A stretch of 64,000 nt of DNA from Branchiostoma floridae (lineage: Eukaryota > Chordata > Leptocardii > Amphioxiformes > Branchiostomatidae), in the NCBI RefSeq assembly GCF_000003815.2, contig NC_049993.1, forward strand, positions 11,813,436 to 11,877,435, read 5' to 3'. Positions 13,255 through 64,000 of the stretch are shown one piece after another. Each line of letters begins with the position of its first letter. Position 1 is the stretch's first letter. The notes beneath the pieces were generated by a model. The model made no database searches, was not told the DNA's origin, and saw only the letters and a list, made by a program, of their open reading frames with translations. Both the position numbers and the translations under genes were made by a program.

Positions 13255-13268
13255 ATCAATAGCAGGCA

Positions 13269-13447
13269 TCTTAGCCTGGATGCCAGGCCATTTCTAGGTT
13301 GTACACAAGCAAGCTCTTCAGCTCCTAGGGAATATTACCACAGACACCCTCAGACCCTAAGATATGGAACTGGGGAATGTCTGTGGTAAAATTTCCTTGG
13401 GGGTATGTTGGCCCTCAAACTTCCTTGTGTAGGCTGTGGGCCTATCT
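13269..13447. repeat. Foldback element downstream of EPHX4-A
   Basis: Paired segments include attaccacagac (near 13334) with gtctgtggtaa (near 13379), and tagcctgg with a matching ggccta near the right end. It is imperfect and likely to be a MITE relic. Confidence 0.5.
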
Positions 13448-13986
13448 CTAATAATGGTACAAAATGCATTCCAGCACTACCCATTGTCCTGACATACCTG
13501 AAGGCTTGGATCAATAGATCCTATTCAAGTTGCTGAAGAATTGAAATTACTAGAGTACAGAAGTGATATCATGTTTGCAGTGAGAACTTTAAAGATCATA
13601 ATCTCCTTTCTTGATAAATGGTTTTCTGGACCAAGAAATAGATTCTATAAATTTGAAGACAAATTGCTCAAGAATAAAACCTTCTAGAGTTCAGTAGTAA
13701 TTACATATTGGTGCAGTGTATGATGTTTGCTGTGTGAACTAGGATTATATTCTCCTTTCTTGGCAAATTGTTTTCTAGACAAAGAAATTAATTCTAATAT
13801 GAAGACAAAGTCTTGGGTTATTTTTTCAAATGAATGTGCAGTTCCAGAATTTCTAACAGTGACATATGAATTGATTTGTATCAATTTTGAAATTGATATG
13901 AAATCTATTGATTTGTATGAGTAGTAGTGTGTAAAAATATATTAAGATGATCACAAAAGTGGCAAACGAGTACTTCATATTCTGGA

Positions 13987-14023
13987 CAAGGAGGTTGAAT
14001 AGCTAGGGGATTCAACCTCCTTG
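13987..14023. repeat. Perfect 14-bp hairpin
   Basis: Arms caaggaggttgaat and attcaacctccttg are separated by 9 bases. There is no T tract or other transcription signal. Confidence 0.75.
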
Positions 14024-14498
14024 TTCTGGGCAAGTCAACCATCATCAAGGTACTTTTGTTACTGTAATCAAGGATCTATGAAATGGAACCTGTTTGTGAT
14101 TTAATATGGTGTATTGTAACTTGCATTGTAAATGCCAGCAGGCAAAGAATTATGAGACAAGTAATAGTTACCCCATGGGCGGGGCGAGTTTTCTGTGTAT
14201 ATCACCAGGCCCGCCTACCGAAAGTCCACAATCTTTCTTGTTATTGCTTGAAAAGCTGTGACAGACAGTGTCAGGCTGTAACAACACAAGGTCATTAATC
14301 TTGTCAAGACCTTCCAGGGCAAGGTGCCTGGAGAGACAGAAAGTCTGGTCATATTCCTCTGGGGAATTAGAAGTCTAGAGTAGGATTGGTCAGTTATCAC
14401 ATGACACAATTCTAGTCCCAGAAGATGGGCTCAAAGGTAAGCGAGGATTGGTCAGAACAGGTCACATGCGTAGATTTCTTGATATTACTAGTAGTAGT

Positions 14499-14590
14499 AC
14501 CACACTTTTCTTCTGAAATCACCACACTTTTCTCCTGATATCACCACACTTTTCTCCTCATTTGCATGAAATAGCAACACACTTTTTTCA
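14499..14590 (+). repeat. Short tandem repeat, unit about 26 bp
   Basis: About three diverged units of caccacacttttctcctga type lie upstream of EPHX4-B. They end beside an octamer-like atttgcat. Confidence 0.6.
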
Positions 14591-15209
14591 TAGCGACATA
14601 CTATGTGGATATAGCAACAGAAAATGGGGGCTTCTCATTGGCTGAGGGGAAGTAGCCATGGGCTAATAAAGGTTTTTTGAATTATAAAATCCGTTCTTTA
14701 TTCTCATGCAATTGTCTTGAGCTAAGCATCACTTAACGTTTACTGTGTCTGTAAGTTAGTAAACTAGTTGTTGTTGATGGAACCTCCTTGGTAATAATTA
14801 TGGTACACAGCCTGGAGGTAAATTAATTGGCGACAAATGTTATCTGAACGCGAACCCTAAATGATTTGGCCAACCAACTTGCCGAAGAGGTGGATTTGAT
14901 AAACGACCTGTTACCTTTGGGGTCAATGCCCTCAAGGGCGTTGGTCTGGTCGATTTGAATGTGGGGGCTACAACCGGATGAGATTAAAGTGAATATGATC
15001 CATTGTAGATTTTTTAATGCTAATTCTATTTAAAAATATGGTGTCAATTTTATTTTTAGAGTTTGCCTTCGATTAGAAATTTTGTATACATTGCACTTGT
15101 CAATGATATCTATAAACAGATATCACCACTCTAATGGTATGGTCTCACCAAGAATATTTACAACTGACCCGCAAGTTAACGTTAAGGAACTCTGAACTCG
15201 TGAGAAGAC

Positions 15210-18007
15210 ATGGGTTTCCTCAGTAATATCGTCCAAGTAGTTACAACTTGGGTCATCGCAAGTTTCTATGGTTCCTTGGTTCTCTTTTACGTGGTGCTCA
15301 GAATTATCAGGCGCGGACCCCGGGCGTTCTTTGGCTACAAGGTTCGGCAGGGCCGCCCCAAGTGTCTGGACGACCCGGAGCAGGGCACGCACGGGTACGT
15401 GCGGCTGAAGAGCAGCGGGCTGAGGTTCCACTATGTGGCGGCAGGGGAGAGGGACAAGCCGCTCATGCTGTGTCTGCACGGCTTCCCGGAGTGTTGGTAC
15501 TCCTGGAGACACCAACTCAAGGAGTTCAGGTATGCGGTATCGGGGTTTTCGGAAAACCCTGTCCAGTCCAGACAGGGAAATGGGGCGGAAAACCCTGTCC
15601 AGTCTGAAAAGAGGGTCTGCATAGGGGTTCCTGGCAATACTTAAAACTATTTAAGACAGCAGACAGCACTTTAATACACTAAATTGATACACATAACTAA
15701 CGTTTTTTTAGGTGGCGGTATAATGGCACATGGTGGAATTATGATAGTCGATGTTAACCTATTAAAGTTGCATTCAAAGTGCAATGAAAGGTTTCTGACA
15801 GAGATGGCTCATGTTGTACAGTGATCCATGGTCATGTCAGGAAATGCAAGTATGATTTCTTCCTTGAAGTATGGCATAATTTGCATAATTGATGAGGATA
15901 TTCTGTCAAAGCAGTTTTTTTTTCAATGTATCATTTGTCCCGGACAGGATATGGTCTTTACATTTAGGGGGTGATAGCATTTCATGTGAGGACAAGGTGG
16001 GGCAGCCAGGTTTGAGCCCCCTAACATTAACTTTTGGAACTGCAGAGGGATTTTTGTACCAAAAATTCCAAAGGGGATAACTGAAGAAAGGAATGATGGA
16101 ATTCCATCATTTTAGACATGCAGGTACTGTAGTGAAGGCAAAGATGCACACAGTGACATGCACATTATGCAAATGAAGACCTAACTTGCATAATCGATGA
16201 GGAAATTGTACAAATACTACAATTCCATTACTTTCCATCACAGGACTTTAGTAAACTTAACAAAATGTAATTCATGACAGGTGGAACATAGCATATATCA
16301 AACATGCAAATCAGGAACTGATTTGCATAATTCATTGATACAAAAAGTCTCAATGATAAATGATATGAAATTTGTACTTGTGATGTGTTAGTTGATGGTG
16401 AACATGGCCATGCATTGATCATGCAAATCAATGTCTGAAATTATTACATCGATTATAAAAACAGCTACAGTGAAAAGAAAAAAAAACGTGCATCACCGCG
16501 CAGGCCCATGCAGAGGACATGCTAAACTACATATGAATGTGGCAAAGGGAACATAAAGATACAGATGCGAATGTGCGTTACATGGACATAAACAATAGTC
16601 TGTTGCTGGAGGTTACCATCCGGTCACAGACTAACTAATTACTCTCTATTATAATGTATTACACCCTGTGTTCTTTCAGGAACTCCTACCGTGTTGTCGC
16701 CCCCGACCTACGCGGTTATGGTGAGACGGAATCCCCACAACCATTCGGTTATTGGGGCTGGCCCAACTTCAGTGTGTCCCACCTGACCAATGACGTGCAA
16801 GAGTTGATCGAGGCTTTAGGCTACAGTTCCTGTACCCTGGTGGCACATGACTGGGGCGGTATCATTGCCTGGCTGTTCGCTGTTGATCATCCTGATCTCG
16901 TGGACAAGCTGATCGTGATGAACGCCCCCCATCCTGGCACCTTTATGAAGTACATGAGAACCCATTTCTCCCAGTTCCGCCGCTCCTGGTACGTTTTCTT
17001 CTACCAGTTGCCATGGCTACCAGAGAACATGGTTAAAGCCTTTGACTTTCAGGTAGGTTGGGGAGATTCAGAGACAGTTTGCTCTTTTAATGGCTCTTTT
17101 TAATGACTAATGCAATGTACTGCTATAAACTGTTGAGCTATACACACTACTAAGAGAATTTGAAAGAAAGGTGCTTTTTTCAGACCCTCTAATCGAATGT
17201 CTTCTTATTTAGCAATGCAATCTGACTACTAAGATGTATATTATAAGTTTATTTGGTTGCTAGAATATGATACTACCCTACACGAGAACACATTGCAATT
17301 CCATAATCTGTAATTTCTGTCTCTGTATTCTTCAGTTAATCTACGGTGCCTTCAAAGGTAAAGGCATGGGCTGCAAACGTCGTGATGCCGTAACTGAAGA
17401 AGACTTAGAAGCTTTCAAGTACACCTTTGCCAGACCTGGAGTTAACATTTCTGCAGGTATCGGTGCTGTCTTCATTTTGTTGAAACTTCAATGGGCCTAA
17501 TCTGTATCTGTAAATTGTAAAAGGTCTCTTTTTCTTTGTCATCCAATTGGACATGTACTACTGGTACTACTATTGTTGTCAGGGCAATTTTTTACCTCCA
17601 CTCCCAAATATGAATAGATGATGTAGCATGAACAAGATAGACTCACTATTCCACAAATATGTCTTGTCTGCCCACCCTGTACTTCCTTTTTATAGCATTC
17701 TGTCTTTCTAAACTAAGGTTATATGATATAACATCCAACAATGTTTCTTCTGTTACTTTAAGCCATCAACTACTACCGTGCTATGTTGAAGCAGCCACCA
17801 CGCAGCTACAAGGGTACAAAGGTGACGTGCCCCACCCTGATGATCTGGGGAGACCAGGACGCAGCCTTAGAGGTGGGGCTGACTGAGGGGACGGACAAGT
17901 TTGTACCTGACTTTACTCTGAAGATGGTGCCGGGAGCCAGCCACTGGGTACAGCAGGACCAGCCTGAGGTGGTCAATGGGATCATGAGGGACTGGCTGAA
18001 GGCATAG
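15210..18007 (+). CDS. EPHX4: Epoxide hydrolase 4-like alpha/beta hydrolase, copy B
   Basis: Four exons at the same intron positions and phases as copy A: 15210-15529, 16680-17052, 17336-17456 and 17763-18007, giving 352 residues. The membrane anchor, HGFPE, AHDWGG nucleophile, GDQDAALE acid and ASHWVQQD histidine are all present, so it should be catalytically competent. The anchor region and exon 3 differ clearly from copy A. The second half of exon 1 and most of exon 4 are almost identical to it, and the exon 1 identity runs over the splice donor into the first bases of the intron. It ends KA after the position where copy A stops. The gene is convergent with GIPC. Confidence 0.92.
15870..16440. 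repeat. Diverged repeats with octamer-like ATGCAAAT motifs in EPHX4-B intron 1
   Basis: The phrase ttgcataat(t/c)gatgagga occurs at about 15878 and 16189. Matches to atgcaaat or atttgcat lie near 16170, 16304, 16320 and 16424. The intron appears to contain an old repeat with several copies of this motif. Confidence 0.45.
16432..16590 (-). repeat. Dispersed repeat shared with GIPC intron 1
   Basis: The reverse complement aligns with 30445-30600: gatgtaacgc, tcgcatctgtatct, gttccctttgccaca, agcatgtcctctgca and atcgatgtaataatttcag occur in the same order. The copies differ by small indels. This is a non-coding dispersed element; its family was not identified. Confidence 0.7.
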
Positions 18008-43266: not shown

Positions 43267-46200
43267 CTACCTCTGCAGTACAAATGACAGTGTAGCCAGG
43301 ATACTGAACCCTACAGTCAGACACAGCACCTTGAGAAGTCTGTCCCCGTCCTTTTCCAGCTCACGCCCGAGGATCTCGAAGAACGTGACATGGATGAACG
43401 TGCCCGCGGCGAGCCCCTGGAGGATTGCACTGATCACTGCTGTCACAAACCCTGGCTGGGTCTGCGGAAACACAGTTCAATTGGTTAAAAACATGACAAC
43501 CACATCAGCTATCAAAGGCACATAGCTTAAAAGTTGATATATAGAAATGTATCAGTGGAAGAAACCATCCCAATAGTGTGCAAAAGAAACAAGGAAACCA
43601 GTCTACTTCTTTCTTCCTTATGTTCTTAATTCACTTTCCTACGTGCTAGCATTTATGCTTATTACACTTTATACTACATACGTCTGCTGATGATGTACAT
43701 AGATGTACCTTGTTGGTCTGTTTATCATCACTTTGTCTGTCACTTTTATATCATCACATGTAACTTTTTGCAAACATCTATGGCCATACTAAACTGTGAT
43801 GTCTTTCACCCACACATGCAGTTAGACACTTATGTCATTGTAGTATGTAACAAAAGGCATCCACAGTATGTGTACAGCACAATGTATGCCTCTTTTTTTT
43901 AACAACCCACCTGGATGCCCATCCCAGCGCCCATGCCGGCCGGTACCATGACACAGAACAGTAGTGCCAGTTTCACCACGGTGGGCGTCTTCATGTTAGC
44001 GGAGACCAGGTTCACGCCCAGCGCGAAGGCTGCCAGACACTCGTGGATCATCACTCCTATGTACAGGTTCACAAATACTCCCATGTCCTCCTGGAGGCCT
44101 AGACAGAAGAGAAAAATACATTTAGTACCTTGCTTTTTTAAACATAACCTAGCCTTTTCACAATATTAATGCTACAGAAAGATGAATGAACTATGATTCA
44201 AATTATACATATCATATTCAAAATTTACATAATGTCATAGGCATGCATGAACCAGAAAGAAGACATGTAAGACTGATAAAATTGTTAATTTTATGGCACA
44301 GTTACATGGACTCCAAAATAAATGATTCAGTTCTAATGTTAATGTATTATCTATTGTGAAAGTAAACTGTATGAAAAATTGAGTGCCACTGCCTCTGAGT
44401 TACAAAAACACAAAAAATTTCCTCTTTACTAATAAATAAGATACTATATCTTTTTACATGGACTAGGACTAGGTTATACAAACTACCTACTCTCTTAGCA
44501 GAGATTGTTAGGAAATGGTGCTAGCAGAAAAAAACAGGGCATATAAAAAGACAGTCACTATCTTCCCCGCCAATTGCTCAGAGACTACTCACCCATGGCC
44601 AGCCCCTCGAACACAGAGTGCACAGACAGCGCCAAAAGCAGCACATAGGAGCGGAACGAACTCAGCTCTCCCACACCCTCAAAATGGTCGTGGTGCAGGT
44701 GGCCGTTGTGCGTGCTGTAACGTAAACTCTGCTGTTCTGCATCTGATGAGGATTCGCTGTCCGAGTCCGACTCGCTACTTCTGCCCAGCCGACTGGTTTG
44801 TTTACTGACAGGAAAGAAAAACAGCATGTCAGGTGTGGCATCTGGATTGTTCCTTTCAAACAAGATATGATGGCAACAAACATTCTGCACTTTGTATAGT
44901 TTCTTCTTTGACAATTCACAATGTGCGTCTATCAGACTGAATACCTCTAGCTAAAATTTTGTAATCATATCAACAGGGCAAAGTGGTATTGTTCGACATA
45001 CATTCCTAACATTTGGTCTTGTATGAAGAATAATTTGATCAAGTACTAGAAGCTTAGATTTCTCCCCACTGCCTAACCTACATATTTGGTACCAATAGGC
45101 TAAATGTACTTTAGAAGGAGAAGGGTTAAAACTGTTGACCTGCTGAGATTTTTTTTAGCCAATTTAACCCCCCCCCCCCCCCCCCCTGAGCTGTGTGATT
45201 GATCAGATCAGTAAAATTGGACCTATTCTGTGCTGCTGCTGCAGATATACAGTACCTCCCGAATAGATGTGGTTTGCTGCGGTATGCCGCATTTAAGTGA
45301 GAAATGCCCCAAACCCAAGATACTCGACCAACATACAGGCATTATATACGTTCATATATACTTGGGTATAGCAGGACAAGGGTTAACTTAGAAATAAACC
45401 AACCACTGCAGTAGTGTAGTTAGGAAAAGCCTTACCTGCTGCCTAGTGTCTCCATCTTCAGTAAGCCTGTTCTCTGGGGTTTCTTCTGACAGGAGTGAAC
45501 CACCTGTTCTACAAACACTGACAGGAGCAGACCAACCTGGACAGGGGGAGGGGGGTGATGGGCATAGGTTACAGGAAATTAGCCTGGTATCTAAATACTA
45601 TCTATTTATATTAGCTTCACTTCAATGTTCACTTCAACCTTCACTTCAACTGAGGTAGCTGCATAGTCTTTGTAATGTACACATCACAGGGCTGTAACTA
45701 TCCCCTCGCGGCAATGTGGCATGGGCTGCTATAAGCACAATTTAATCAGGCTACTGTGCAGGGAAGTGACCATTGAATGGAATTAGAGTTAAGATGGGGA
45801 TGGATACTATGGACTTCAGGAAAATCAGACTACTACTAAAGATCAAGGTACTGAAATTTAATTGATATATGAGCTGGCTTTGCTTACCTCCCAATGCAGG
45901 CAAGCAAATTTCCTTCACTGCCTGGGAAGACTAATGTTTTGAATTTTGGAGATTTAGAATTACATTTTTAAGCATGTACGATGTAGGTTGGGATTATCTG
46001 TAATCATTATGTGGAGGCAAATAACATCAACTTACAATAGTGACTGTCTCGGCTAGCGGGTAGTTAACTTTAATGTCCTTCATGGTCAGGGCATTCTCCA
46101 CTTTCTCCCTGACCGTTGGCAACAGGCCCAGAAAACACGTGGCCAGGAATACTCCGCCAGCGAAACACGACATCAGGCCCAGCGCACGCGACGTCCGCCG

Positions 46201-46320
46201 CTGTCTCTGTCCGAAGTCTGTCTGTGGCCGAGCGACACACTTGAGTGGAATGATAGTCATAATGAAGAGGCCGATGAACGTGCCTCCCAGGCACAGGCCC
46301 TTTACTACCAACAGCTCCAT
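43267..46320 (-). CDS. ZIP-family zinc transporter, SLC39A1/2/3 group
   Basis: Five coding exons on the minus strand: 46036-46320, 45436-45536, 44593-44804, 43911-44098 and 43267-43461, giving 326 residues, the size of ZIP1-3. Eight membrane segments can be traced: three before a variable loop and five after it. The loop (about 130-176) has a Ser/Asp/Glu-rich run and a histidine cluster HNGHLHHDH (161-169). TM4 carries H191 and E195 in HSVFEGLAMG. TM5 carries H218 E219 in HECLAAFALGVNL, the metal-binding signature of the ZIP II subfamily. It should move Zn2+ into the cytosol across the plasma membrane. It cannot be assigned to ZIP1, 2 or 3 and is probably ancestral to them. The acceptor just upstream of the ATG (about 46353) implies at least one non-coding 5' exon. 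Confidence 0.93.
45169..45186. repeat. Poly-C/poly-G tract
   Basis: An uninterrupted run of about 18 C in a ZIP intron. It is a mononucleotide repeat. Confidence 0.95.
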
Positions 46321-49108
46321 GGTTTTAGTCTTCCTCCAGTTACACAGATCCTGTGAAAAAGAAATTGAGTGTTGTCAGAATGTTTGGTAACAGATAAGTA
46401 AGTAACAGATTCAAATTATGTCATGTAGTGTTTGCATATTCCTTTCACATTCTAGATGTTCAGTATCATTATCATTATTACATACATCCTCAGTACTGGC
46501 AAGGATCCTTTACAATGTAATAATGGGGGAGAATTTGCACTGGGGTGTACTTAATGATATTTTCTGTGTACTCAGCTTGTGAAAACACCAGATAATACCA
46601 TGATAAGGGTACTGTGATGGAAAAATTTTGAATGGAAAAATTGTGTAATTGCTAGTAATGGGAGAGTCAATGTTTATGATACAGTGTGGTCCGTCTGCCT
46701 TGCTTCTATATATATCATATATTGATTTCTCATTAGTACATGTACGTGTACATGATGATATCTTTTGATAAATGAGAGTAAATCTAACACATTGACTCTA
46801 AATACTAATGGCTGATAAATACTAAATACTTGTAGCAACAAAGAAATATCTTCCATAACGATAAAATTTCCATTACTACAAAGGAGTATCTCTGATTCCA
46901 CTGAAAACTGCGCATGTATGCTGTAATGTCATGTTAACAGTGGACGTTATCACCACCATGTAAGTGTTGTATCAATAAACACCTTGACTACACACTAAAC
47001 AACACGGCATGTGATTTAATCTCAACGTTTGACGTCAACTTCAACAGTCAAACTTCTGCACCAAATGCGAGATAATCTCACCAGCAAATGATGTGAAAGA
47101 CCACAAATGTTAGCATAGGAAAACAAAAAACAAATTGAGATTTTATTGCAGAAGGAGATATGAATGACTTCCCTGGTATCCAGACCTATATAACGCTAGT
47201 TCACCTTTATCCATGGGGTGACCTTTATCCGTTGTTTTTAAAAACAGTACATTTAGGGGTATTAAGTCTAAGGACTGTGATTTCAAATTTGCAATATTTT
47301 AAAAATGTTCCAATTTGAAACGACCGTCCATCCACTTCATATCCCTAAATATGCTTTTTTTTTACAAACAACGGATATAGGTTACCCTTGGATAAAGGTG
47401 AACCAGCGTTACTGATTATATTTGCTTCCTAACTACTTTTTCTACAGTTGAGAAATGTACGTGAGCTGTACATGACTGGAGACCAGGTAAATACATGACT
47501 GCTGACTGTGCTATAAGTGTAACTTCCATATAGTAACTGCTTTGTGCTATCAGCCACCTGGCTATTGTGCTGTGGTTGCTAGAAATTATCAGCTCTCAAT
47601 AATTGGGATTTGTCAAAAACCACAAAGTATAGAGGCTATAATCATGTGATAACCATGATTACAATGCTCATAATGAGTACCTACCAGTATATAGTGGTAC
47701 TACCTGGCCATATGATGTTAATTATACCAAGAACTTCTATGTAATGTTCTTGATTCTACATGTACCTGTTGCACAATACTCTCTCTCTAGTATTGCACAA
47801 ATATCCTGTTCCATTGACAGCCCTGTATGACTTTGAGTCTATTTGGACTGCAACAACACAATGCACAATGGACTTCCAGGCATGAAAAAGGGATCTTAAA
47901 CAATGAACATATTCAGCAGTATGTGACACATAATTTTGACACCTTTAGCCTACTAGGGACTTGATCTGTTTGGTTTTTAATAGTACATGTACCAGGGCTG
48001 TTTCAAGCTTAAGTTTCTTTCCATCTCACTCACTATTTGGGAGCCCATGTTGTTCAATTTGTTATCAAATCTCCAATTTTAATTTATGTCATTCCATGTC
48101 ATAGAAGTTCAGATATTTAAATGGTAGGGAGAAATTTATGTCAATCCCAGGACGGAGGGACGGATCCTCTGGAATCAGCTTCTGATTGGTTCCCATGTTT
48201 GGTAGCGGAGTCAGAGAGATGGTTAGGAGTTGAACTGGCCATTTACATGTGACGTCACTGCTGTCACACCTGTCACTTGAAGCTGAGTCAATTTGAACAC
48301 TTGTGTATAATGTGTTTACTACGTGACTGTTATTACAAATCCAATCCAAATTTACCTGGCAACTTCCACGTTCAATCATCAAGCATGGCATGGTACTAAA
48401 ATCCCCATTGTAACAGTTATAAACAGGTATGCTATATACTCAGTGTTTTCAGTGAAACAGGCAGGTGGTTACTAACATGTTGATGTCCTTGGTTTAGTTT
48501 ACACACCAGTGAATTGCAGCTTAAGCATTCAAAACTTTTTGTGTTTTAATGGCAAGTTTTCTTCTGACAATAGTTGCTTCACTGCGCGATTATCAATATC
48601 ATGCACTTAATAACAGTTCTTTGTGGGGGTCAGAAGATGATACTGTAGATGTCCAAAAATGCTTGATCCACTCAAGGAGCTTTCATCACAAATAAACCTT
48701 GATTCAATGCAATGCAAGCAGCTGCGTCCATCTCCATTTTAATTTGGTGTCCCTATGATGTCACCAGAAAATCTTTGCCATGTACAAACATGTCCCAAAC
48801 AACTCTGCTAGTAACATTTTTATCATGGCTCCTTCCCTGTAGTCGAGGATGTGAGGGAAGTTCTGGAAGATTTACAATGTAAGACTTTTATAATGTTAGA
48901 TGGTTTGATGATGACTGTGTTGGAAAGTGACATAGGCAAGTTGCTATTAAACCTGGATGAACATGAAATTGACACCTTTGCAGTGTTTATTTAGTCTGCT
49001 ACTGTGGCTCTTTTGTTGTAATATGACTCTGGTTGTTGAAAATCACCTTGATTGAATCAATGTCTAATCACAGTCATAACATACCGTTTGGGCAATTTCA
49101 CAATCTGC
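46321..49108. other. Upstream region or first intron of the ZIP gene
   Basis: Contains the MITE at 47191-47411 and otherwise AT-rich sequence with no recognised gene. If the ZIP 5' exon lies near 49740-49830 this whole stretch is intron. Confidence 0.4.
47191..47411. mobile_element. MITE with long imperfect terminal inverted repeats
   Basis: About 221 bp. The left end runs taacgctagttcaccttta then a second half with acctttatccgttg. The right end, reversed, runs taacgctggttcaccttta then acctatatccgttg. The arms pair over about 70 bases. It begins and ends in TA, which would suit a TA-inserting family, but no clear target duplication can be separated from the ends. Confidence 0.8.
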
Positions 49109-50806: not shown

Positions 50807-53800
50807 ATGGTGAGTATAAGATCTGTTTCTTGTGGCTCTAGTTTAGAACTGCAAGTTTGATAATTTTGCTTCTTGTTCTCGATTTTCAGGTTGTTAGTAG
50901 CTTATTTACAAGGTTTCTTGATATACCACAATATCACAGTTTTCACCAGAACTTGTAGAAATAGAAAATGGCACTTTTAATCAATCAGTAAAGTTGTATC
51001 AATCTATAGCTCTGTAGGCTGTTATACAGCAAGAAAACGACTGTACTGGTCAAATCAGTTGCAGTGTAAGAAATCCGCCCAATCGGATCCACAAGCCACG
51101 GTGTAGAAAATGAAGATGCATTTCTGATGATGAGAGAGGACTTGATTTTACAAAGAAATGACGGGCGAGATCTGAAGCTTTATTGGGGAATACATTGCAT
51201 ATTAAGCTGTTATCAATAATATTAGTGATTTAATTTCTAAAGTCTCTCCCCTTTTCAAATTTTGAAGAAAAAAAAAAACTCCTTTGCCTGTTCTAGATGC
51301 TCTCACGAGCCAAGCCGGCCACTGGACCAGCGGCCTCCAGTCCTGCTAAGGAGTCCAGCAAGAAGAAGAAGAAACTGCCCAAACTGGAGGACTACCTGAC
51401 CAACAGGGACTACACTGGGGCCATCACACTTCTCGAGGTAGAGGACAAAATGTCATTTGAAGAGCATGATTTAATTCTCTCATTTCCAAATACCTTCGAA
51501 TTCGTACACTGTAAGACTGTAGCTATATTGATTTTGTATGTCGATATTGTTTTATGTTATTTTTTATTTATGTTTGATAATCAAACCGAGTAATGTTGTT
51601 TCTCTTGCCCCACCAGTTTAACAGATCGAGTGGTAAGGGAAGTGAAGAGGTGGACATGTGGATAGCCTACTGTGCCTTTCACCTGGGAGAGTACAAAAGA
51701 GCCATGGAAGTAAGTTACCCTTATTTCTCCAACCCAATTTGGCAAATGATCCTGTTTATCAGTACAACAAAATCTGCAAGCTTAACAGTTTTTAAGGGGA
51801 TTTTCAAGAATTAGATTTGTTGATTTGGATTGGTCCACAGTAGTTATAAGGCTAAACCTTGGGATCTTTTTCTTTTACACTACCAGTTAATCTCACCTGC
51901 TGATGTTTCGATGCCTCTCAGACATCTTCCTCAAAGCTTCTTATTGGAGTTCAACTCTATATATAGCAAACATAGGTAGCACTTCATTGGTTGTGTAAAA
52001 GAAAACCCTACTATCCTATGACCTACTAGTACCAACGTTAACCTGATGAAATTATTTTCGTATGGTTAAACCATGTTGCTAAAACTGATACCCGTCCATC
52101 CCCAGGAGTACCAGTCCATGACGAAGCGAGACGGGTGCCACCCTGACGTCTGGGTGAACCTGGCCTGCTGTGACTTCTTCCTGGGCATGTACAAGGAGGC
52201 AGACGAGGCCGCGCAGAAATGTGAGTCCTGAGGGCTGGGTGGGCGTGGGTTTCCATGGCAACGGGAAAAGTCCTTACATAGAGGATGACTCATTAGAAAA
52301 TAACATTGGACAATATTCATGCATGATGTCTTTGATTTATAGAATTATATTTCTCAGCTAAACTGTAGCAAACTTGTGAAATTTTGTTTTGAACAGTACT
52401 AACATAGCATCAATGATTGTTTGCAGTCACTTTTCCGCTATGTCTTAGATTGTTTAATCACAAACCCATAGAAAAATCTGACATTAACTTCTTTGAGAGA
52501 AAAGATTGCAGTATCTGAAATCATTGCATGACCTTATTTTGTTATAATATTTCAATTTCAAACAATGGACAGTCAAAATGGAATTATACAAAGCCTGATA
52601 GTTTAATTTGCACATGGTCATAAGACTATCTGCTATCCATTGTTAACCAACTACTAACCAGTGTTAACCACCCGCTAACCAATGTTTACCAAATGTTACC
52701 ACCTGTTGGCCATTGTTAACCACCTGCTAATGATTGTTAACCAGTTACTAACCATTGTTAACCACCCGCTAACCATAATTGTTAATCAAATGTAACTGCT
52801 AACCATTAACTTACTGATAATAGTAACTAGCTGCTCATTATTGTTAACCACCTGCTAATGATTGTAAACCAGTTACTAACCATTGTTAACCACCTGCTAA
52901 CCAGTGTTAACTACCAGTAACCATTATTTACCACATGTAACAACCTGCTTACCACTAACCACCTGCTAACCATTGTTACCAAGTGTTAATTATTGTTAAA
53001 CAAACGTTAACCACCTGCTAACCAGTGTTAACTACCAGTAACCATTATTTACCAAATGTAACCACCTGCTAACCACCTGTTTCCACATCTAGCCCCCAAA
53101 AGCCGCCTGCAGAACCGCCTGCTCTTCCATCTCTCACACAAGGTGAGCCAGAATTCCGACGTAAGCCAAACATTTGTTTTTGCCAGTTCCCTCTCACAAC
53201 TGGCTTGTACCTCATGCACCTCTGCATGGCTGACATAAAGGCTGGGACTACAAGGTCTCCCTCCCTCTGCAAGCATGCATCTACATGTATAAGCATGAGG
53301 CAATGTCTGGTACTTTTTAGGAACTGCCTGTTACAGAAGATCTTGCATGGTGCTTGAATTTTGTGACACCAAAATACGATATTTTCTTGTTATCTATACC
53401 AAGAATAGTATCATTCAATTAGCATACCGTCAAATGTTTACACCAAATACAAGCCCTACTAATGTTATTGAACCTTGCGACAATATCTTCAAGTCTGAAG
53501 AACAATTTTTTTGATGGCGCAATTTTCAATAACTCAAGGGTTTATGTATGTATTTGGTGCACACACATACGTGTATGTTGAATGAATAATACTATAATTA
53601 TAATTGTTGTGGAATATAAAAAGAAAATGGTTTCATGCCGTCCTTAAGTGAAGCTTTCATTAATTTTTGGGACAGAAACAGATGTCCTATATGTAGTGGA
53701 GGGTTTCATATCCAAACAGAATTGTTAAAAACTGAAGCCCTGCTGAAATGCTAGGAAGGAAGAAGTTACTATAAACAAAGAGAGGAATCTATATAAAGCC

Positions 53801-56800
53801 TTTGACAATGATAGTAAAACTTGCCATGTTGTGCATCATGAAGCCACACTGTGTTCATGTGTGCAGCTATCCTGTCATCACCCAACTTTTCAGTCTTTGC
53901 AACAAGCATGTGACAGCTGTGTAAAGCTCACCGCTCAAAGAAGCATGGCATTCTTCATTGTGCACTGTGATGTTTTGTGTGGTTGCACGTGAAAGCCCCA
54001 TGTCATCAAACTGCATGGATCATTCGAGCTGTGCTGTAGTATACTAGTAGTAGAATTGTGTTATTTTGTAGAAGTTGTATGGGACATCACAAGAAAAAGT
54101 AGTGAATCAAGAGCTAAGAGTTTTGCATTTTTTTTAAACGTTGGTCTTTTTTAGTATCTTAGTATCTTTTAGTATTGATTTGATGACTTTTAATGAGATA
54201 CTAAGAAAGATCCCACATCAAATATAAATGTGGAGTTTCAAAATAACTGAATATTTTTTTATCATACATTGTATGTGTGCAGATTGTACCAGCATACTAA
54301 ACACTGATATGCAATACGCATTTTGGACTCATGATATCATTTTCATAATGGAGTGCATGTTGCGTAAACTGGGAATACAAAAGTGCCCATACAAATTGTA
54401 TATGTACGAGTATATGCACTTAGTAATGTGTGGCTTGTTCAAATTTGCTTGATTTGTCTCTTCTGCATGTTTTGCTGCTTGATATCTTGTCTGTACTGTG
54501 ACTATTGTGAAACGTGTCCATGTTTTATGTGTCTATACGTGTGGCTTGTGTTCCAGTTTAATGATGAGAAGAGACTGATGCAGTACCACCAGAACCTGCA
54601 GGATATCATCGAGGACCAGCTCAGTCTGGCCTCCATCCACTACCTCCGCTCACACTACCAGGAGGCGATAGACATCTACAAGAGGATTCTCCTAGATAAC
54701 AGGTCACTTAAGATTATCACACATCTACCCAGAAATGTGATTTTCTACTGATTGAAATCTTTTCACTTGTAGCAAAAGAGATACATGATTTTGATATGGC
54801 AGTGGGAGTCAGATACTAGAAAATTGGACTATTGTTTTGAGTATCCCCCATTCACAAGTTTTCGCAAAGAAAGAGAGAGTCTGGATTGTGGCCTGATCAT
54901 CTGGACTTGAACCAGATCCTCCTTGATAACAAGTCGCTATCAATTACTAGACATTTACATACAAATGTGAGGGGAAATCTTCTCACTAGTTTACATTTAT
55001 CTATCGACAAAAAACTTTTCAGTTGTAGCAAAAGAGTTACGGGGTATCATATAGGAGCTGCATTTTTTTACTACCCTGACTCAATGTACAAAGTGTATTT
55101 TGATGAATCTAAAGCTGTAGAGAGGGATGTTGCAGTTTTGTTTCAAAGGTTATGATAAAACTCCTTCTAGGATGGGTGTAGCCGTATGTTGTACAGGGAG
55201 CTCAGCTATAAAAACATGACAACATGAGCACATATTAGATGATATCTAGGATTTCATTGTACAAAATCTATTTCTATTTGCAGTGATTTGTGAACATACC
55301 GTAATATGTTTTTTTGTTTAAGTCTAGTATTAGGTTGAAGTCAGAACATACAATGTACTTTGTTTAAAGAGTCACTGCTGATCTTTTCTGTTGTCTAATG
55401 CTACCATTATCTGCCCTACCTAACAGAGACTACCTGGCCCTGAATGTGTATGTGGCCCTGTGTTACTACAAGCTGAACATACAATGTACTTTGTTTTAAG
55501 AGTCACTGCAGATCTTTTCTGTTGTCTAATGCTACCATTATCTGCCCTACCTAACAGGGACTACCTGGCCCTGAATGTGTATGTGGCCCTGTGTTACTAC
55601 AAGTTGGACTACTATGACGTATCCCAGGAGGTGTTAGCTGTGTACCTACAGCACTACCCTGACAGCGCCATCGCTATCAACCTCAAGGCCTGCAACCACT
55701 TCAGACTCTACAACGGCAAGGCTGCTGAGGTCAAACATTTCTCTTCAACTTGTTGTCGCAAGTTTTTCTGGAAAAGCTAAAATGAGCATGTACAATGTGT
55801 AAGGTAGAGGGAAGTCATAATGACTGTGTTTTAGTGAATGCTCTATTTACCTAGTTAAAGATGGCTAAACTCTTAGGGATTTTCTCTTTCAAAAAACGGA
55901 AAAAGTAGAAGGAATGTTTAAAACTCTTCCCCCAGCCTTTCAAATGTAGTACAGTCAAACCTGTACAGGTAGCCACCATTTTATAACAATACTAACAAAG
56001 TTCTGCTAACTGTGTATTCTCTGTTGAGCATCACATCAGTTACCTCTTTACCAGGTAGACCAGTTTCAGATTCAACAAGTTTCATATGGACATTTTGGCA
56101 CAAGCATTAAGAATCCTTTCTATAGTGACCGCCGCCTGTCCACACAGACCAGATTTTATCTGTCCCATGAGTGGTCTTCTTGCACAGTTTTGACTGAAGA
56201 TTTTCCTGTATCCCACAGCAAGAGCTGAAGACCCTCTAGGAGATGGCCTCCCCCTCCTTCACCTTTGTTGCCCTTTCTGGTCTTCTTGCGCAGTTTGACT
56301 ATGGCTTTAAGATTTTCCTGTATCCCACAGCAAGAGCTGAAGACCCTGCAGGAGATGGCCTCCCCCTCCTTCACCTTTGCTAAGGAGTTGATCAAGCACA
56401 ACCTGGTGGTGTTCCGGGGCGGGGAGGGGGCCCTGCAGGTCCTCCCGCCCCTGATAGATGTCATCCCTGAGGCACGACTCAACCTCGTCATCTACTATCT
56501 CAGACAAGGTGAGATTTTGATATTTACGACTGAAGTTGTACCAGAACTAAACTTAAAGTTGTACCAGAACAGCACTTGAAGAACTCACAGTGTTCCAGTT
56601 TTCTGCAATAGGTAAGAATTCATATCTCCACATTTTTTGGTGGTCTAAAAATAGTTGCTTGATCAATTTACTTAACAAACTTGCAGAAAAAACACAAAAA
56701 TGCTATAGTGTAAGATTGAGCTATGACCATTGAAATGCAAATAGAGACACCAATATGGCACCTGCCTGCTTCATTGACATGGAATGTAAGGGAAGTAGTT

Positions 56801-59800
56801 GTTTGTTATGTACAATGCTTTTAAGCAGTGTCTTATTTCTGTCATCTCTCCCTCCCCAGATGACGTATCTGAAGCCTATAACCTGATCAAGGACCTGGAG
56901 CCAACCACGCCGCAGGAGTACATCCTGAAGGGCGTGGTTAACGCCGCCCTCGGACAGGAGACGGGATCGCGGGAACACCTGAAGATCGCCCAGCAGTACT
57001 TCCAGCTGGTGGGAGGGTCTGCCAGCGAGTGTGGTGAGTCTTACAGAGATGTTTAGGTTGATGCTGTTTTTCTGATATGGAAGTTCTTGTGTAATGGTAC
57101 AAAATGGTATGTTTTATTGACATTTACCTTTAAGTTTATAAGTACCAATGTAGCAGGCTGAACTATACTCCCAGCCAGAATATATACCCAGGTATATTTT
57201 GGCCAGGGGTGTATTATGACATGCTGCACTGGTAACAGACCAGTGCAAAGAAAGTACCATAAGAAATTAAGAATGATATAAACTTATAAAAGAACAAAAG
57301 AGACTGTGATGAAAGCTTGCTTTAAAGGGTTTTATGTTTTTGCTGATTTTTGAGATGTTGCTTATTAAAAGATCTTATTGGTCCTTAGTGTTCTTTGTTG
57401 CATGTTAAAATCACCTAGGAGAAAAGATGGTTTGCTAAGAGTGAGAAAGATAAAGAACAGTGTACCATTGACTGTATGTGTACCTTAATGCCTGTTCCTG
57501 TTCTTGCAGACACCATCCCTGGCAGGCAGTGCATGGCGTCATGTTTCTTCCTACTCAAACAGTTTGAGGATGTGCTGATCTATTTTAACTCAATCAAGGT
57601 AGATGGTAATTTCTGTCTTGTTCCTAATAGTATGGTCTTTTTGATTCTAACAAAAATCAGTTTTGGTTGCTCCTAGAATCTTAGGTTGAATGCTTGGAAT
57701 GTTTGCCATAGACCCCGCATTTGTAATTATCATATTTTTCTTACATATATTTCTCTACATATATGTCTGAAGAATCCTGAGAGTTTATTTAATTCTTCTG
57801 ATTGTGACAGATCTTAGGAAATGTTGAGGAAGAGAGGAAAAACTTCTTGGCCTTTAAGGGTAATGTCTTTTCAGTGCCATGTTTCATTGAAGTTGTGTTG
57901 TGCCTTTTGCAGAGCTACTTCTACAACGACGACACGTTCAACTTCAACTACACGCAGGCGAAGGCCGCCGTGGGAAACTTCAAGGAGGCAGAAGAGGTGG
58001 CCCTGCTTGTGCAGAACGAGAAGCTGAAGAATGACTACACCTATCTCAGCTGGCTGGCTCGCATCTGTAAGTTACACTGAAGTGTCTGTAGGGATTTTCT
58101 ACTGGGGCTCTGTTAGAATTAATTCAGAATCCTTTGTAAACAAAAGATAGCAGTTCTTTGGATCTTAGCAGGTTAAAGAAAAGAGCACTTTAGAGAGGAA
58201 TAGTACTTTAAGTATGATGTTCTTCCCCCACAGACATCATGAACAACAAGGCCCGGCTTGCCTGGGAGTTGTACCTGAAGATGGAGACTTCAGGAGAATC
58301 CTTCAGTCTCCTGCAGCTGATAGCTAATGACTGTTACAAGGTATGGAGTCTTATGGAGAGGAATAAGAATCAGATATGTAAGAACTTACAAGCACTGGAT
58401 ACATTTTCCATGATGAAAACAGAAGTTGTCTTAAAGAGATGTATTGACCATGGAAACGTAATGGAGAAGTACCTTGTCATTTTTTTGTGTGGATATAGAA
58501 AGTAATAAACAGGTTGACACTTTGTCTTGTACTGTTGTAGATGGGTTAGGTGCAAAAATTTAATGTATTACCATGCTTGCCACAGATGGGACAGTTCTAC
58601 TACGCAGCAAAGGCGTTTGATGTACTGGAGCGACTGGACCCGAACCCTGAGTACTGGGAAGGCAAGCGTGGCGCCTGTGTTGGTGTCTTTCAGCAAATCA
58701 TCGCCGGGCGGGAACCAAGGTGAGTCAGAGTTCCCACCAGAGCTTCCACGCTTCATGTAAATTCTACAATCAGCTTGTATAGAGCTTTCTGTAAGTTACA
58801 AATGGCTAGAAGTAGGGGTGGGTACCGGTACAGAAAATACAGGTATGGTCCAGACCTGAATCTGGGCCTAATTATCTGTCAAAACTTGTGAATGGGCGAT
58901 ACTCTAAACAACGGTCCATTTTGCTACAAAAGATTCTGTTTGGTGCAGCATCCAACATCCACTGGCATTTTAAAATCTTATCTTATGTAAACTTAATGTT
59001 TTAGACCAAGTTTGAGTGTAAAACTTGAGTAAACGACTATCAACTCTCCTCTACTTCCCTCGTTATTTATTTTGATCTGTAAGCCCCCAAACACCTGAAC
59101 GCCTACCAGTATAATCTGTTCAGTTTTGAATTGGTCCAAAACCAGGTCCACTGATATTTCTAGAAAAACTGGACCGTTCTCTCTCTCTCTGTTTGACCGG
59201 TTTAGCGTCCGTTCTTCCCTGTAGCAGGGGTTGGACGTAGAAAAACTGGTATTGTACCGGTACATCTTACCAGTACCCACCCCTAGCTAGAGGCCCTTTC
59301 TTTAAGACATGTGCAATGTTAAGACATGTGCAATGGCCAGAGACACTGCTGATGGCTGGCGTGTGTTTACTGCTTCACTTCAGCACCAGAAGAAACACCC
59401 TGCAGCTGGTGGAGTAATGTTAACATATCGTTTCTCAGTCTTCAAAGACAGACATGTGCAATAAAGTTTCCCTTGCGTTTTTAGGGAAACGTTGCGGGAC
59501 ATCATCCAATTGCTCCACAATACGTCTAATATGCAAGTGGAGTATATAGTGCGGACCATGAAGAAGTGGGCAAAGGACAACAGGCTGGGCATTCCATGAT
59601 GGTTAGCACAACACGTTTCCACACAAGTCGTCCTGTCACGTTGTAGGGCTATAGTCTGAGTGGTTTGTACTACAGTGTGCTTTACCAGGTCACTGATGTT
59701 TGTGGACCCAGAGCTGTGGTGTGTGGCCTACTGTATTTACCCCAATAATTGCACTCTCTCCATATAAATAATACTGTACTACTTACTATTACTACAGTAA

Positions 59801-60919
59801 CACAAATGATAATTTATTCTAACTTCAGCATGCACAGAACAGAGCTAGAAAAGATCATATCGGGTGCATAGTTTTTTTTAACAATGATTTGATGTGTGCA
59901 TTATTGGAGTAGGTATGGTAGATGTAACACAAAAGAGTCTAACTCTGTCTTCTGGTTCTAAAAGACCTGTCCAAATGAGTAGTCCTGTCCAGTTTTTCAA
60001 CATTTCTGCAGCAATTGTCAGGTAAAAGGTGGCAGCTGATCAGCCAGTGCAGCCCTGAGCACAAAGAAGGCAGCTGGTTTGAATCCTCTTTTTTCCGCAG
60101 AACCTCACGAGTCTTCCTGACTTCTCCTGTTGTAGTGTGGTGTCCTGGTCCCCCTGTGTCATCCTGATCCTCAGGTTCAGCACAGCATGGCACACTGGGA
60201 TCACCAGCACTCAGAGTCACTTCTCTCACTGCCATCTTTTCTTCTTCATTTGTTCTTTTAAAATTGGCAGTGCCTATGACTTCATGTACATTACATAGAG
60301 GAACATAAATGCCTTTGGGAGCATTCTCCTGCACAAAACCTACTTAACCAGGTGGAGGTTTCTACTTTAGTGGGCATGGCCTCTGACCAGGTAAAATTGA
60401 TTCTCTGACAGCTGACAGCCACACCCACAAAAGTGGAAATCTCAGCCCAGTTTATCAAAATCTCCCCAAGGTAGATTGTATAGGCTGTGGGCAAGGCTTT
60501 GCATGGGAGAATGCTCTTATGTGTGTTCCTTTACACATGGCAGAATGTATAGGAGCCACGCTGTCTTTTCTGTTGATGTGTGCTTGCATTTGCATTGGCA
60601 ACAAAAGTACATGTAATAGCCTGGTATGCAGCCTTGTTCAGCTAAGACCTACTTCCCAATGGTTGTTACTGTTGGGAAGCAGATGAAAGCTGGCCTGCAT
60701 ACCTAGGCTATGATATGGTCCTAGTGGTAAAGGTGTTGCAGAATCTATTTGATTGACAGAGCCCAGTTTAACCTGCAGCATATGTTGTTCTCTCCATGCT
60801 GCAGGGACAGTGTGCGAGAGATAGTCCAGCTGCTGAGGAACACCAGTAACCCACAAGTAGAGTACATCACCAGAACCATCAAGAAATGGGCAAAGGACAA
60901 CAGAGTCTCACTCAGCTAG
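50807..60919 (+). CDS. IFT56: Intraflagellar transport protein 56 (TTC26)
   Basis: Coding exons: 50807-50809, 51297-51437, 51617-51709, 52106-52220, 53093-53142, 54557-54702, 55558-55729, 56331-56508, 56860-57033, 57510-57598, 57913-58066, 58234-58340 and 58586-58719, then one of two terminal exons (59485-59599 or 60805-60919). Either choice gives 556 residues, close to vertebrate IFT56. The protein begins MMLSRAKPA and is built of tetratricopeptide helices; long blocks such as [47 protein letters not shown] are almost unchanged from vertebrates. It is a subunit of IFT complex B, which carries cargo, notably motility proteins, along the ciliary axoneme. Exon 1 contributes only the start ATG, and exon 2 begins with a second ATG that could also serve. 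The donors of the exons ending at 54702 (gtcact) and 55729 (gtcaaa) are weak. Confidence 0.95.
52249..52262. promoter_or_regulatory. RFX X-box palindrome in IFT56 intron 4
   Basis: The sequence gtttccatggcaac matches the RFX consensus GTHNYYATRRNAAC at every position. It lies 29 bases after the exon ending at 52220. RFX factors drive ciliary and IFT genes in animals; usage here is inference. Confidence 0.5.
52636..53080 (+). repeat. Minisatellite of ttaaccacctgctaaccatt units
   Basis: About 20 or more diverged units of 18-22 bp fill the end of IFT56 intron 4 and run up to the acceptor of exon 53093-53142. The unit contains gttaac and taacca. Confidence 0.9.
54912..55050 (+). pseudogene. Degraded duplicate of an IFT56 exon end and following intron
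   Basis: The segment gatcctccttgataacaag and the following bases copy the end of exon 54557-54702 (gattctcctagataacag). Similarity continues in the intron (acatttacatacaaatgtga against acatctacccagaaatgtga, and gttgtagcaaaagag against cttgtagcaaaagag). The donor gt has become aagtc. Confidence 0.6.
55344..55474 (+). repeat. 131-bp tandem duplication across an IFT56 acceptor
   Basis: The unit 55344-55474 is repeated at 55475-55605 with few changes. It includes the polypyrimidine tract, acceptor and first 48 bases of exon 55558-55729. Using the upstream acceptor (exon start 55427) without the downstream one would read into the second unit and meet a stop. Confidence 0.9.
56172..56278 (+). repeat. 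Tandem duplication across a second IFT56 acceptor, with stop codon
   Basis: Copies the acceptor and first roughly 50 bases of exon 56331-56508 (offset 112 bases at the acceptor). The duplicate reads caagagctgaagaccctctag, so the frame ends after six codons and it cannot act as a coding exon. Confidence 0.9.
58812..59286. mobile_element. Foldback element in the intron before the first IFT56 terminal exon
   Basis: The left end taggggtgggtaccggtac and the right end, reversed, ctaggggtgggtactggta, are matching termini about 475 bp apart. A second paired block is gtaccggtac. There is no coding capacity. It looks like a MITE. Confidence 0.7.
59485..59599 (+). CDS. IFT56: IFT56 alternative terminal exon a
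   Basis: After the acceptor gtttttag this exon encodes [37 protein letters not shown] and a stop. The phase fits exon 58586-58719. Its start (ETLR) matches the vertebrate C terminus I remember better than exon b does. No good polyadenylation signal was seen close downstream. Confidence 0.88.
60295..60535. repeat. Inverted repeat pair between the two terminal exons
   Basis: The segment gagcattctcctgcacaaaacc near 60319, shortened here to its core gagcattctcc, is mirrored by ggagaatgctc near 60507. Neighbouring bases are also partly paired (ggaacataaatg with tatgtgtgttcc). It is probably a MITE relic. Confidence 0.5.
60617..60710. repeat. 94-bp hairpin between IFT56 terminal exons
   Basis: The arms tagcctggtatgcagcc and ggcctgcatacctaggcta pair, as do acttcccaa and ttgggaagc nearer the loop. 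The size and shape resemble a pre-miRNA, but short MITEs of this form are equally likely. Confidence 0.6.
60805..60919 (+). CDS. IFT56: IFT56 alternative terminal exon b
   Basis: After the acceptor ctgcag this exon encodes [37 protein letters not shown] and a stop. It has the same length and phase as exon a and about 65 percent identical residues by eye. Its last residues (NRVS) resemble the vertebrate end more than exon a does. A polyadenylation signal aataaa lies near 61546. Confidence 0.88.
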
Positions 60920-61952
60920 AACATACACCAATCTGCTGACCAGCTTCTACTATGTTTCAATTATATTATAGAAAGAAAGGAAATACATTTTTATCATAGG
61001 GTATCAAGACATTGGGACTTTCTGTTCATTTTAGAAAAGAAAATTTATTAGAATCTGATATCCAAGTAAATTTTGTAACTTCTATGGCTCATTCCCTGAC
61101 ATATTGGAGAACAATATGAGCATTGTACATGTATATATTTGCATATAAAATATTGTATATGATGTAGGTTGTCATCATCTCTTCTTCTCATAACTATTAT
61201 TGGCAATCTAGAAACTATTTGGGGATTGATATTCTCATAACTTAAAAAAGTGGACAGTCTACCTGAAGGTATCAAAATTGTGTGTTTTTTATTTCTTTCT
61301 TGGTCAGATTGACAAATAGGAGTTTTTGTGGGGTGAATTCACAACATTTTCAACAGTTGTAGTTGAATCCACAATGTATAAAGCATTGTATTGCAGATAT
61401 AAGAACAAATTAATTGATGTAAGGTACAATGTATGGATGTTCCCTTCCATAGATTTGTTGAATGTTCTGTATAATTTACTTCAAGGATTTGATGCTATCA
61501 GTCATGCTGTAAATAAAATGTTCTGTACAGCAGTTTGAAACTTTGTAATAAAGATAGAACACATTTTTCTTCAACAGTTGTCTTGAGCAAATGAATCTCG
61601 TTATGTTGCTAATTGAAATTAGAGCAGCAGTCTACACATAGAAATTTAAAAGTTTAAAAACATCACATTAAAGATCAAGTCAAAATAATCTCTTCATTGA
61701 TAATTTATCTCTTCATTTTATGAAAATATACATGTACATTCTATTTGTAAAAAGATCTGGCCTTACAGTTCATTTGTAATCTGAGGTAGGAACTACCAAC
61801 ATATGACGGGATAATTAGTTCCTTCCCCACTGTTGGTAGCCTCTTTGGCACAATCCCTTTCTGCCGGGGGCTTATCGGGTCCTTCTAGAGGCCTGATCGG
61901 TCAAAGGGCTGCTAGAAGCTTGATTTAGTCAGGCTACAATGTCGGTGACCAA
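60920..61952. other. Convergent intergenic region IFT56 / IDO
   Basis: AT-rich, with no gene. The IFT56 polyadenylation signals aataaa near 61511 and 61546 fall here. A tttatt near 61706 could serve the minus-strand IDO gene. Confidence 0.5.
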
Positions 61953-64000
61953 TCAGGTGCCAGACACATCCGGCAGGAGAGCAGCAGTTGTGGTGTCTCG
62001 TACACTCTTCAGGAACGTCATGATACCTGTTTGGTACAGATAAACAGCTCAGTCATTTCCACAAACACAGTACTAGTCTATGTAATTCTTCATCCTGTTC
62101 AGTTAATCTGTAAATTTCTTGACAATTTGTATCTGTATAAGGTTTGAGGCATAGTACCTGTTCCACCCGTGCCAACATTTGCTAATCCTTCAACCTTGTG
62201 CCCCTTGGCTCTCTTGGAAGGGATGACAATGTAGCTGTAGGCCAACACATTTAATTGTTAAGAATTAATGGAAAGAAATTTTCAAAGAAGCGTCTATAGA
62301 GACACAACAGAGAAAGGTAACATTTGCAAGCAAATACTTGCAACTTTCCTTTAACCTTCACTTGGTCTAGCCTAACAAACTACAGCTATGTTTATTCTTA
62401 CTCAAACACATTGATCATATATATGGTGACCAGCCACTCTGGCTCCATCCTGCCACTTGCTACATACCAGTAATGTATTGAACACCACAGTGTGCCGCTA
62501 CTTTACAACTAACCATTTGCATGGTCATTGACCTTATTTGTTTGAAGAAGAAGAAACATAAGCTATGCAAATTAAATAACATACATGTAGCAACAACTAT
62601 GAAAACTCATAAATATGATAAGATACCTTGCAATGATACTAATATGCAGTGAGCGGAAGTCTCTGAGTGTGGACACGCAGGTATTATATGCAGTCCTCAA
62701 CTCCTGATCATCAGTGTTTGACACAAAGTTGCGTACGGACGGACCCTTGCCCACATCAGCTATGAAGTTCCTGTGAGCCGGTAGCATGTGGTCCCTCATC
62801 CTCATCAGGAAGGCACCTACAGGTGGAGGTTAATTGTTAGTCATTGGCCACATTCTTGGCTAGGAGAAACCTGTAAAATGTCATTTGTGGCAGCAGTACA
62901 TGTATTTGTACTACTTACCTTCTCTGCCATTATGTTTGATTCCGAGAAACTCATCCAGGCATTGTATTGTTGCGACTTGGGCAGCACTTCCCCCAGAAAG
63001 CTGGAACGGTTCGTCCCTAACACCCTCGTAGATCAACCCACGGGGGAGGGCGGGGTTGTCCTTCCAGCCTGACAGGAAGTACCGCAGCTGGTTGTAGAAC
63101 ACTTCCGTGTCACACTGCTCCTTCATTCTACCTAACGTCTGCTTCATTTTCTTCAGTACAGGTATAATGGCAGTGAGAGCATCTCTGGTTGACTTGGAAT
63201 TGCCTTCAAGTACCCCTTTCTGTGCCTGATCAGGTATAAACACAGAAGACTATTCAAGTTACAATGTAGTAGAATGGGGTAAATAGATAAACTCCAAGCA
63301 GATCTTGTGATGGCATAAGATAGTATCATAAGCTGGGGATGGAGTTTAGCCAGCAAAGGAGTTCTTTAGCAACTGCTTAACTCCTTCCACAGCTTATGAT
63401 ACTATCTTATGCCATCGCAAGATCTGCTTGGAGACTAGTCAATAGATCTACTACATAGCAGAATATAGAAATAAATGAGATGAACTCATAATACTTAGAA
63501 ATGTACCACCACATGATACACTGTTTATAAATTTGCTGTAAAGATGAAATGCCCTTTTTTTCAAAAGAAACATAGTCTTGTGAATGACTGTCTATATATT
63601 TGCATTTGTCACAAGTAAGACCATTGCAAAGGGCAAACAAACCTACCTCTAAAACCAGAGGTAAAGCTGCGATAAAGTCAATCTCTATTTGAAGGGGTAT
63701 CAAGGCAAACCAGGAGAAGTCTCGAGGACAGGTGATGCAGAAGAGTAATTGAAGATTGTCCAGCTCTAGCGGCCCCTTGGGATCCTTCTTCTTCCAATTG
63801 GCCAGGCTGACACAATGGTGAGAGATGATTGGTGGAACCCCGAGGTGCTCCGACACATGGTACCAGGGAACAGCGACGCTGCGGGGCAGGAAGTCTGGTA
63901 CACCTGCCTCCCCCGCCTGCCACACGTAGGCGTGGCCGATGGTGCTGAGCAACAGGTGGGCCAGGTGCCACTCCAGGGGACCCTGTAGCCGGGTGTGGTC
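61953..64000 (-). CDS. IDO: Indoleamine 2,3-dioxygenase, partial (N terminus outside window)
   Basis: Minus-strand exons: 63647-64000 (open to the window edge), 62919-63225, 62627-62816, 62158-62234 and 61953-62026, giving 333 residues; about 70 N-terminal residues are missing. Family landmarks are HAYVWQAGEAG, LPRSVAVPW, LANWKKKDP, YFLSGWKDNPALPRGLIYEG, LSGGSAAQ and the heme-ligand histidine in LPAHRNF. The distal arginine expected in QLRYFLSGW is present. IDO is a cytosolic heme enzyme that opens the indole ring of tryptophan to N-formylkynurenine, the first step of the kynurenine pathway. The protein ends with a short tail after TFLKSVRDTTTAALL. Invertebrate chordate IDOs precede the IDO1/IDO2 split, so no number is assigned. 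Confidence 0.95.
63292..63433. repeat. Large near-perfect hairpin in an IDO intron
   Basis: Arms 63292-63335 and 63390-63433 are 44 bases each, with one mismatch (core gcataagatagtatcataag), separated by a 54-base loop that itself contains short inverted segments. It has the structure of a MITE or a long double-stranded RNA source. No target duplication was recognised. Confidence 0.85.

Follow-up and report, generated by a model that had tools for sequence, protein, structure and literature searches.

IFT56 (TTC26/DYF13) is a component of complex B of intraflagellar transport (IFT) in cilia, known in mammals and Chlamydomonas (PMC3936282), and is described as lying at the outer, cargo-facing periphery of IFT-B1 and as being required for the entry of inner dynein arms into flagella (PMC10191852, PMC3936282). 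Here the IFT56 gene of the lancelet Branchiostoma floridae is analysed in a window of 64 kb (C15:11813436-11877435) of a genome assembly of 513 Mb in 431 contigs, to which all genome-wide searches refer. From its sequence, the gene can probably make IFT56 in two versions that differ slightly in the tail, encoded by two neighbouring last exons named here 13A and 13B. IFT subunits are mostly regarded as fixed parts of the transport train; if two conserved C termini are indeed made from one gene, the make-up of IFT trains would be tunable by splicing. The genome evidence makes this claim testable rather than demonstrated, and the lancelet is a suitable animal for testing it.

Gene structure and the duplicated last exon

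The coding sequence of IFT56 starts at position 51297 of the forward strand and comprises 12 common exons followed by two candidate last exons (Table 1). Exons 1-12 join into an open frame that is completed to 555 residues by 13A or by 13B alike. Both products match Chlamydomonas IFT56 (8bd7_E, 555 residues), form A with E 1e-224 over query residues 5-551 and form B with E 2.5e-224 over residues 5-554, the alignment extending into the tail in each case, and the Pfam tetratricopeptide repeat (TPR) models TPR_19, TPR_14 and TPR_2 all exceed their cut-offs. These matches identify the gene as IFT56, the assignment made in a preliminary description of the window. The gene appears to be single-copy in the lancelet, since exon 10 matches the genome once at E <= 0.001. 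The algal entry represents the same protein at the same length with a single tail, whereas the lancelet gene offers two; in vertebrates, IFT56 is not known to have more than one C terminus.

Exons 13A and 13B are homologous and lie on the same strand, each with its own acceptor and its own stop codon. Both measure 115 nucleotides (nt) through the stop and are entered in equal phase (AG|G). The preliminary description had placed them exactly, with the right phase, acceptors and stops, and the equal length that it reported stands; it had however taken 115 nt for the complete exons, while this is the coding part through the stop codon, because a 3' untranslated region (3' UTR) must come after it. 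Of the 115 bases, 70 are common to both copies, and the differences fall at first, second and third codon positions in 12, 8 and 25 cases, respectively. With the stop counted, 26 of 39 codons are equal in meaning, and 25 of 38 residues are identical. The 14-residue core of the tail, already singled out as conserved, shows no difference between the copies.

That this likeness exceeds chance is shown by searches at two scales. Within the window, a search with the 13A peptide recovers 13B (E 9e-15). Across the whole genome, two matches to the 41-residue C terminus appear up to E 1, and these are 13A and 13B (scoring was limited to candidates from a loose first look, here two of two); no third copy of the last exon was found genome-wide up to this E value. 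Aligned without gaps, the flanks of the two exons are 28-32% identical, so that the likeness is limited to the coding stretch. Among bacterial, archaeal and viral contigs, animals being outside the scope of this search, the tail pattern was matched 18 times in genome_contigs and 8 times in viral_contigs, and tblastn returned no relatives.

Their sequences mark 13A and 13B as tandem duplicates, and as alternative last exons rather than classic mutually exclusive exons. Classic internal exons of that kind have an acceptor and a donor and lead into a common downstream exon, whereas the reading frame ends in both 13A and 13B and no good donor lies close behind either; the best GT between them scores 3.8 (at 60022 and 60391) vs 8.2 for the donor of exon 12. 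A human survey of mutually exclusive exons keeps terminal exons apart (PMC5740500), and in that usage the IFT56 pair is not of the classic kind. The earlier label of mutually exclusive terminal exons is corrected accordingly: the exclusivity is a by-product, because the stop codon of 13A shuts out the distal tail.

Table 1. Coding exons, splice sites and 3' features of lancelet IFT56 (positions in the window)
Feature	Position	Strand	Remarks
Exon 1, coding	51297-51437	+	
Exon 2, coding	51617-51709	+	
Exon 3, coding	52106-52220	+	
Exon 4, coding	53093-53142	+	
Exon 5, coding	54557-54702	+	
Exon 6, coding	55558-55729	+	
Exon 7, coding	56331-56508	+	
Exon 8, coding	56860-57033	+	
Exon 9, coding	57510-57598	+	
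Exon 10, coding	57913-58066	+	
Exon 11, coding	58234-58340	+	
Exon 12, coding	58586-58719	+	
Shared 5' splice site AAG/GTGAGT	58720-58725	+	best-scoring GT in 58700-61560 (8.2; next 4.6)
Exon 13A, coding part, TGA stop	59485-59599	+	acceptor AG (TAG) 59483-59484
Stretch between the copies	59600-60804	+	probably 3' UTR in form A, intron in form B
Exon 13B, coding part, TAG stop	60805-60919	+	acceptor AG (CAG) 60803-60804
Two AATAAA (61512, 61547)	61512-61552	+	beyond 13B; probable common 3' end of the gene

Age of the pair and constraint on both copies

Selection was assessed by comparing copy against copy, 13A against 13B, within one genome. By Nei-Gojobori (NG86) counts, 21.3 of 24.5 synonymous sites differ, as do 21.7 of 89.5 nonsynonymous sites. 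In a profile likelihood over the 38 codons the fit improves continually toward large synonymous divergence (dS) and small omega, the nonsynonymous to synonymous rate ratio. Relative to the best grid point, twice the log-likelihood difference amounts to 4.7 for omega 0.1 (P 0.03), 22.4 for omega 0.5 (P 2e-6) and 36.5 for omega 1 (P 2e-9). Free drift of one copy since the duplication would be expected to give an average omega of about 0.5 or more. Since synonymous sites are saturated, nonsynonymous changes are few and omega 0.5 is rejected, the duplication is old and both exons have been under long constraint; the pair likely predates the split of the living lancelets.

Neither exon is a fast copy. 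At the 13 sites that differ between the tails, the algal residue is kept by A alone in 5, by B alone in 4 and by neither in 4. Thus the earlier impression that both copies look selected is borne out by the saturated synonymous change, the rejection of omega 0.5 and an equal departure from the alga. When drift was simulated with substitutions only (4000 runs), the frame was still intact at 0.3 substitutions per site in 21% of runs for A and 18% for B, and all 26 shared positions were retained in none of the 4000.

Use of the two exons: proposed mechanism and alternatives

The reading regarded as likely is that the old tandem duplicate of the last coding exon is in service, both copies acting as alternative last exons of lancelet IFT56. 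The donor at 58719 would be spliced to one of two acceptors, at 59485 for 13A or at 60805 for 13B. When 13A is chosen its stop would end the protein, and the transcript would continue to the poly(A) signals at 61512 and 61547 with 13B probably untranslated; when 13A is skipped the tail would come from 13B. Both tails would form the same helix pair, terminal in the TPR superhelix, and the gene would yield two full-length proteins whose C-terminal surface is tuned.

The acceptors of the region were ranked among the 184 AGs in 58720-61500 by two matrices, a generic one, with assumed base frequencies as in the donor matrix, and one derived from 11 acceptors of IFT56 itself (10 CAG and 1 TAG). The generic matrix places the 13A acceptor (TAG) 5th and the 13B acceptor (CAG) 2nd of 184, and the 11-site matrix also places the 13B acceptor 2nd. 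A weaker proximal acceptor followed by a stronger distal one would permit a regulated choice.

Several observations weigh against this reading of two alternative last exons in use. By the 11-site matrix the 13A acceptor, ranked 22nd of 184 at 3.1 bits, is weak, with several non-exonic AGs above it and 60101 at the top; a matrix made of 10 CAG and 1 TAG marks down strongly the TAG of 13A. RNA pairing that might steer the choice did not stand out, as the duplex of 58720-59484 with 59600-60804 was equalled by 89 of 100 shuffles and its energy (-331.5) was weaker than the shuffle mean (-344.4); short inverted repeats of 12-15 nt occur on both sides of 13A, and the comparison with shuffles covered the whole stretches. 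Moreover, 38 codons are few and dS past saturation is immeasurable, and a functional change is not evident, most substitutions between the tails being conservative.

The acceptor-like site 60101, between the copies, ranks 1st of 184 by the 11-site matrix and 4th by the generic one. Joined to 58719 it would yield an unrelated 21-residue tail after the joining Arg, a candidate third tail; alternatively, together with the GT at 60022, it would bound an intron of 79 nt within the 3' UTR of form A.

As 13A is followed by no AATAAA or ATTAAA before 13B is reached (none occurs in 59600-60804), forms A and B probably finish at one common 3' end, with competition between the two acceptors. The alternative that both exons are used with separate poly(A) sites, form A being ended through alternative polyadenylation by a non-canonical signal, for example TATAAA at 59763, is rather unlikely. 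It finds some support in the variant hexamers between the copies, TATAAA (59763) and CATAAA (60304) being the only ones present of the 12 checked. The lack of canonical signals there, together with the two AATAAA at 61512 and 61547, argues against it, though weakly, as variant poly(A) signals are in use in many genes. A further AATAAA at 59460 is intronic, 25 bases ahead of exon 13A, and may be due to chance.

For the 37-residue tails, folding prediction from an alignment of the two sequences gives a pair of helices at residues 3-11 and 16-31 (mean predicted local distance difference test score, pLDDT, 80; predicted template modelling score, pTM, 0.49). The tails differ at residues 1, 2, 3, 5, 7 and 11, ahead of and within helix 1, at 16, 22 and 25 in helix 2, which is largely kept, and at 34-37, where the last four residues all differ. 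Identity to the tail of Chlamydomonas IFT56 is 18/37 for A and 17/37 for B. The likeliest use of the pair would be a tail surface tuned for partner binding or stability within IFT-B1. In the mouse hop mutant, with a stop at residue 430, the truncated protein is detectable and a phenotype is present (PMC8925726), which points to the importance of the C-terminal part of IFT56 in general and not of this tail specifically.

It is doubtful that the two copies are interchangeable, equal in protein function and retained for dosage or splicing robustness. The identity of 25 of 38 residues, the mostly mild changes and the predicted helix pair, common to both by alignment, are what such redundancy would look like, but the last four residues differ at four of four positions, and old pairs maintained while their synonymous sites become saturated are usually put to different uses. 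At the other extreme, the pair could be far older than the living lancelets, perhaps a chordate or deuterostome feature lost in vertebrates, with the two forms serving different cilia (one the cargo of motile cilia, for instance inner dynein arms, the other sensory or signalling cilia) and a core IFT-B subunit specialised by splicing; this extension is improbable.

Unlikely too is the explanation that a single copy is in present use, most probably 13B with its stronger acceptor, the other having been used for long and having lately lost its role to become an intact relic. The low score of the TAG acceptor of 13A in the gene's own small matrix would fit such a history, and a recently freed copy would not yet have lost its frame: in the simulation, 0.1 substitutions per site left it open in 53% of runs for A and 50% for B, so that one copy might have fallen out of use very recently. 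On the other side, that matrix is strongly biased against TAG, the average omega is well below 0.5, 13A carries no excess change relative to the alga, and acceptor, phase, length and stop are all retained in it. An assembly artefact, with two haplotypes placed end to end, has practically no chance of being correct and was rejected: near-identical partial exon repeats elsewhere in IFT56 (143 nt, 95%; 102 nt, 89%) could be of that origin, but the 70 of 115 bases shared by 13A and 13B and their unrelated flanks amount to far more than allelic difference.

Known systems and other features of the window

Homologous alternative last exons are already known, and lancelet IFT56 is a new example of this arrangement. 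A close parallel is KRAS, in which forms 4A and 4B likewise arise from two homologous alternative last coding exons with their own stops behind one donor; they are termed mutually exclusive last exons, and their origin is placed in jawed vertebrates (PMC9882654). The tails of KRAS differ in the membrane-targeting signals that they bear, and their use is documented, whereas those of IFT56 keep a common helical core and are known from genome sequence. Tandem 3' exons that encode homologous C termini are also found in the tropomyosin genes, TPM1, Tm1 and lev-11 having three such exons each, and in human tandem-exon substitutions, 77 of 236 of which are C-terminal (PMC9741552). In the portions of that human survey covered, which do not include its full event list, IFT56/TTC26 did not appear (PMC9741552). 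In Drosophila, PGRP-LC and pip have tandem alternative terminal exons as IFT56 does, but the choice between them is reportedly steered by competing RNA structures (PMC9013439), which did not stand out in IFT56; the same source cites tandemly duplicated exons in about 10% of animal genes. The 13A/13B pair was found undescribed in titles and abstracts among the matches listed from the open-licence literature, which is no claim of its absence from print.

Other repeats occur within IFT56. The acceptor and start of exon 6 are copied in a tandem repeat (55344-55486/55475-55616; 143 nt, 95%), and those of exon 7 in another (56172-56267/56278-56379; 102 nt, 89%), whose copy contains an in-frame stop; both look young and are partial, in contrast to 13A/13B. 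Intron 3 holds a TGTTAACCACCTGCTAACCA-like tandem repeat array (52630-53076) that ends just ahead of exon 4. In intron 12, a repeat with inverted ends TAGGGGTGGGTACCGGTA/TACCAGTACCCACCCCTA (58813-59285) resembles a small DNA transposon, and its inner part has 73-80% matches at no fewer than, i.e. at least, 39 other places in the genome. A second interspersed repeat, partly palindromic, lies between the last exons at about 60340-60523, with inverted arms at 60319-60341/60494-60516 and many genome matches (approximately 60389-60523).

Among the neighbouring genes, an indoleamine 2,3-dioxygenase gene (PF01231, E 7e-29) at 62914-63249 on the reverse strand is the convergent downstream neighbour of IFT56. 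Three adjacent open frames on the forward strand (4994-5617, 5895-6653 and 6994-7527) each encode a Myb/SANT-like domain (PF13837); they are 45-52% alike where compared and may be tandem genes or alternative exons. Two tandem alpha/beta-hydrolase genes occupy 10972-18004, their matching exons being 72-87% alike in protein, and an exon of a ZIP zinc transporter (PF02535) is located at 46030-46374 on the reverse strand.

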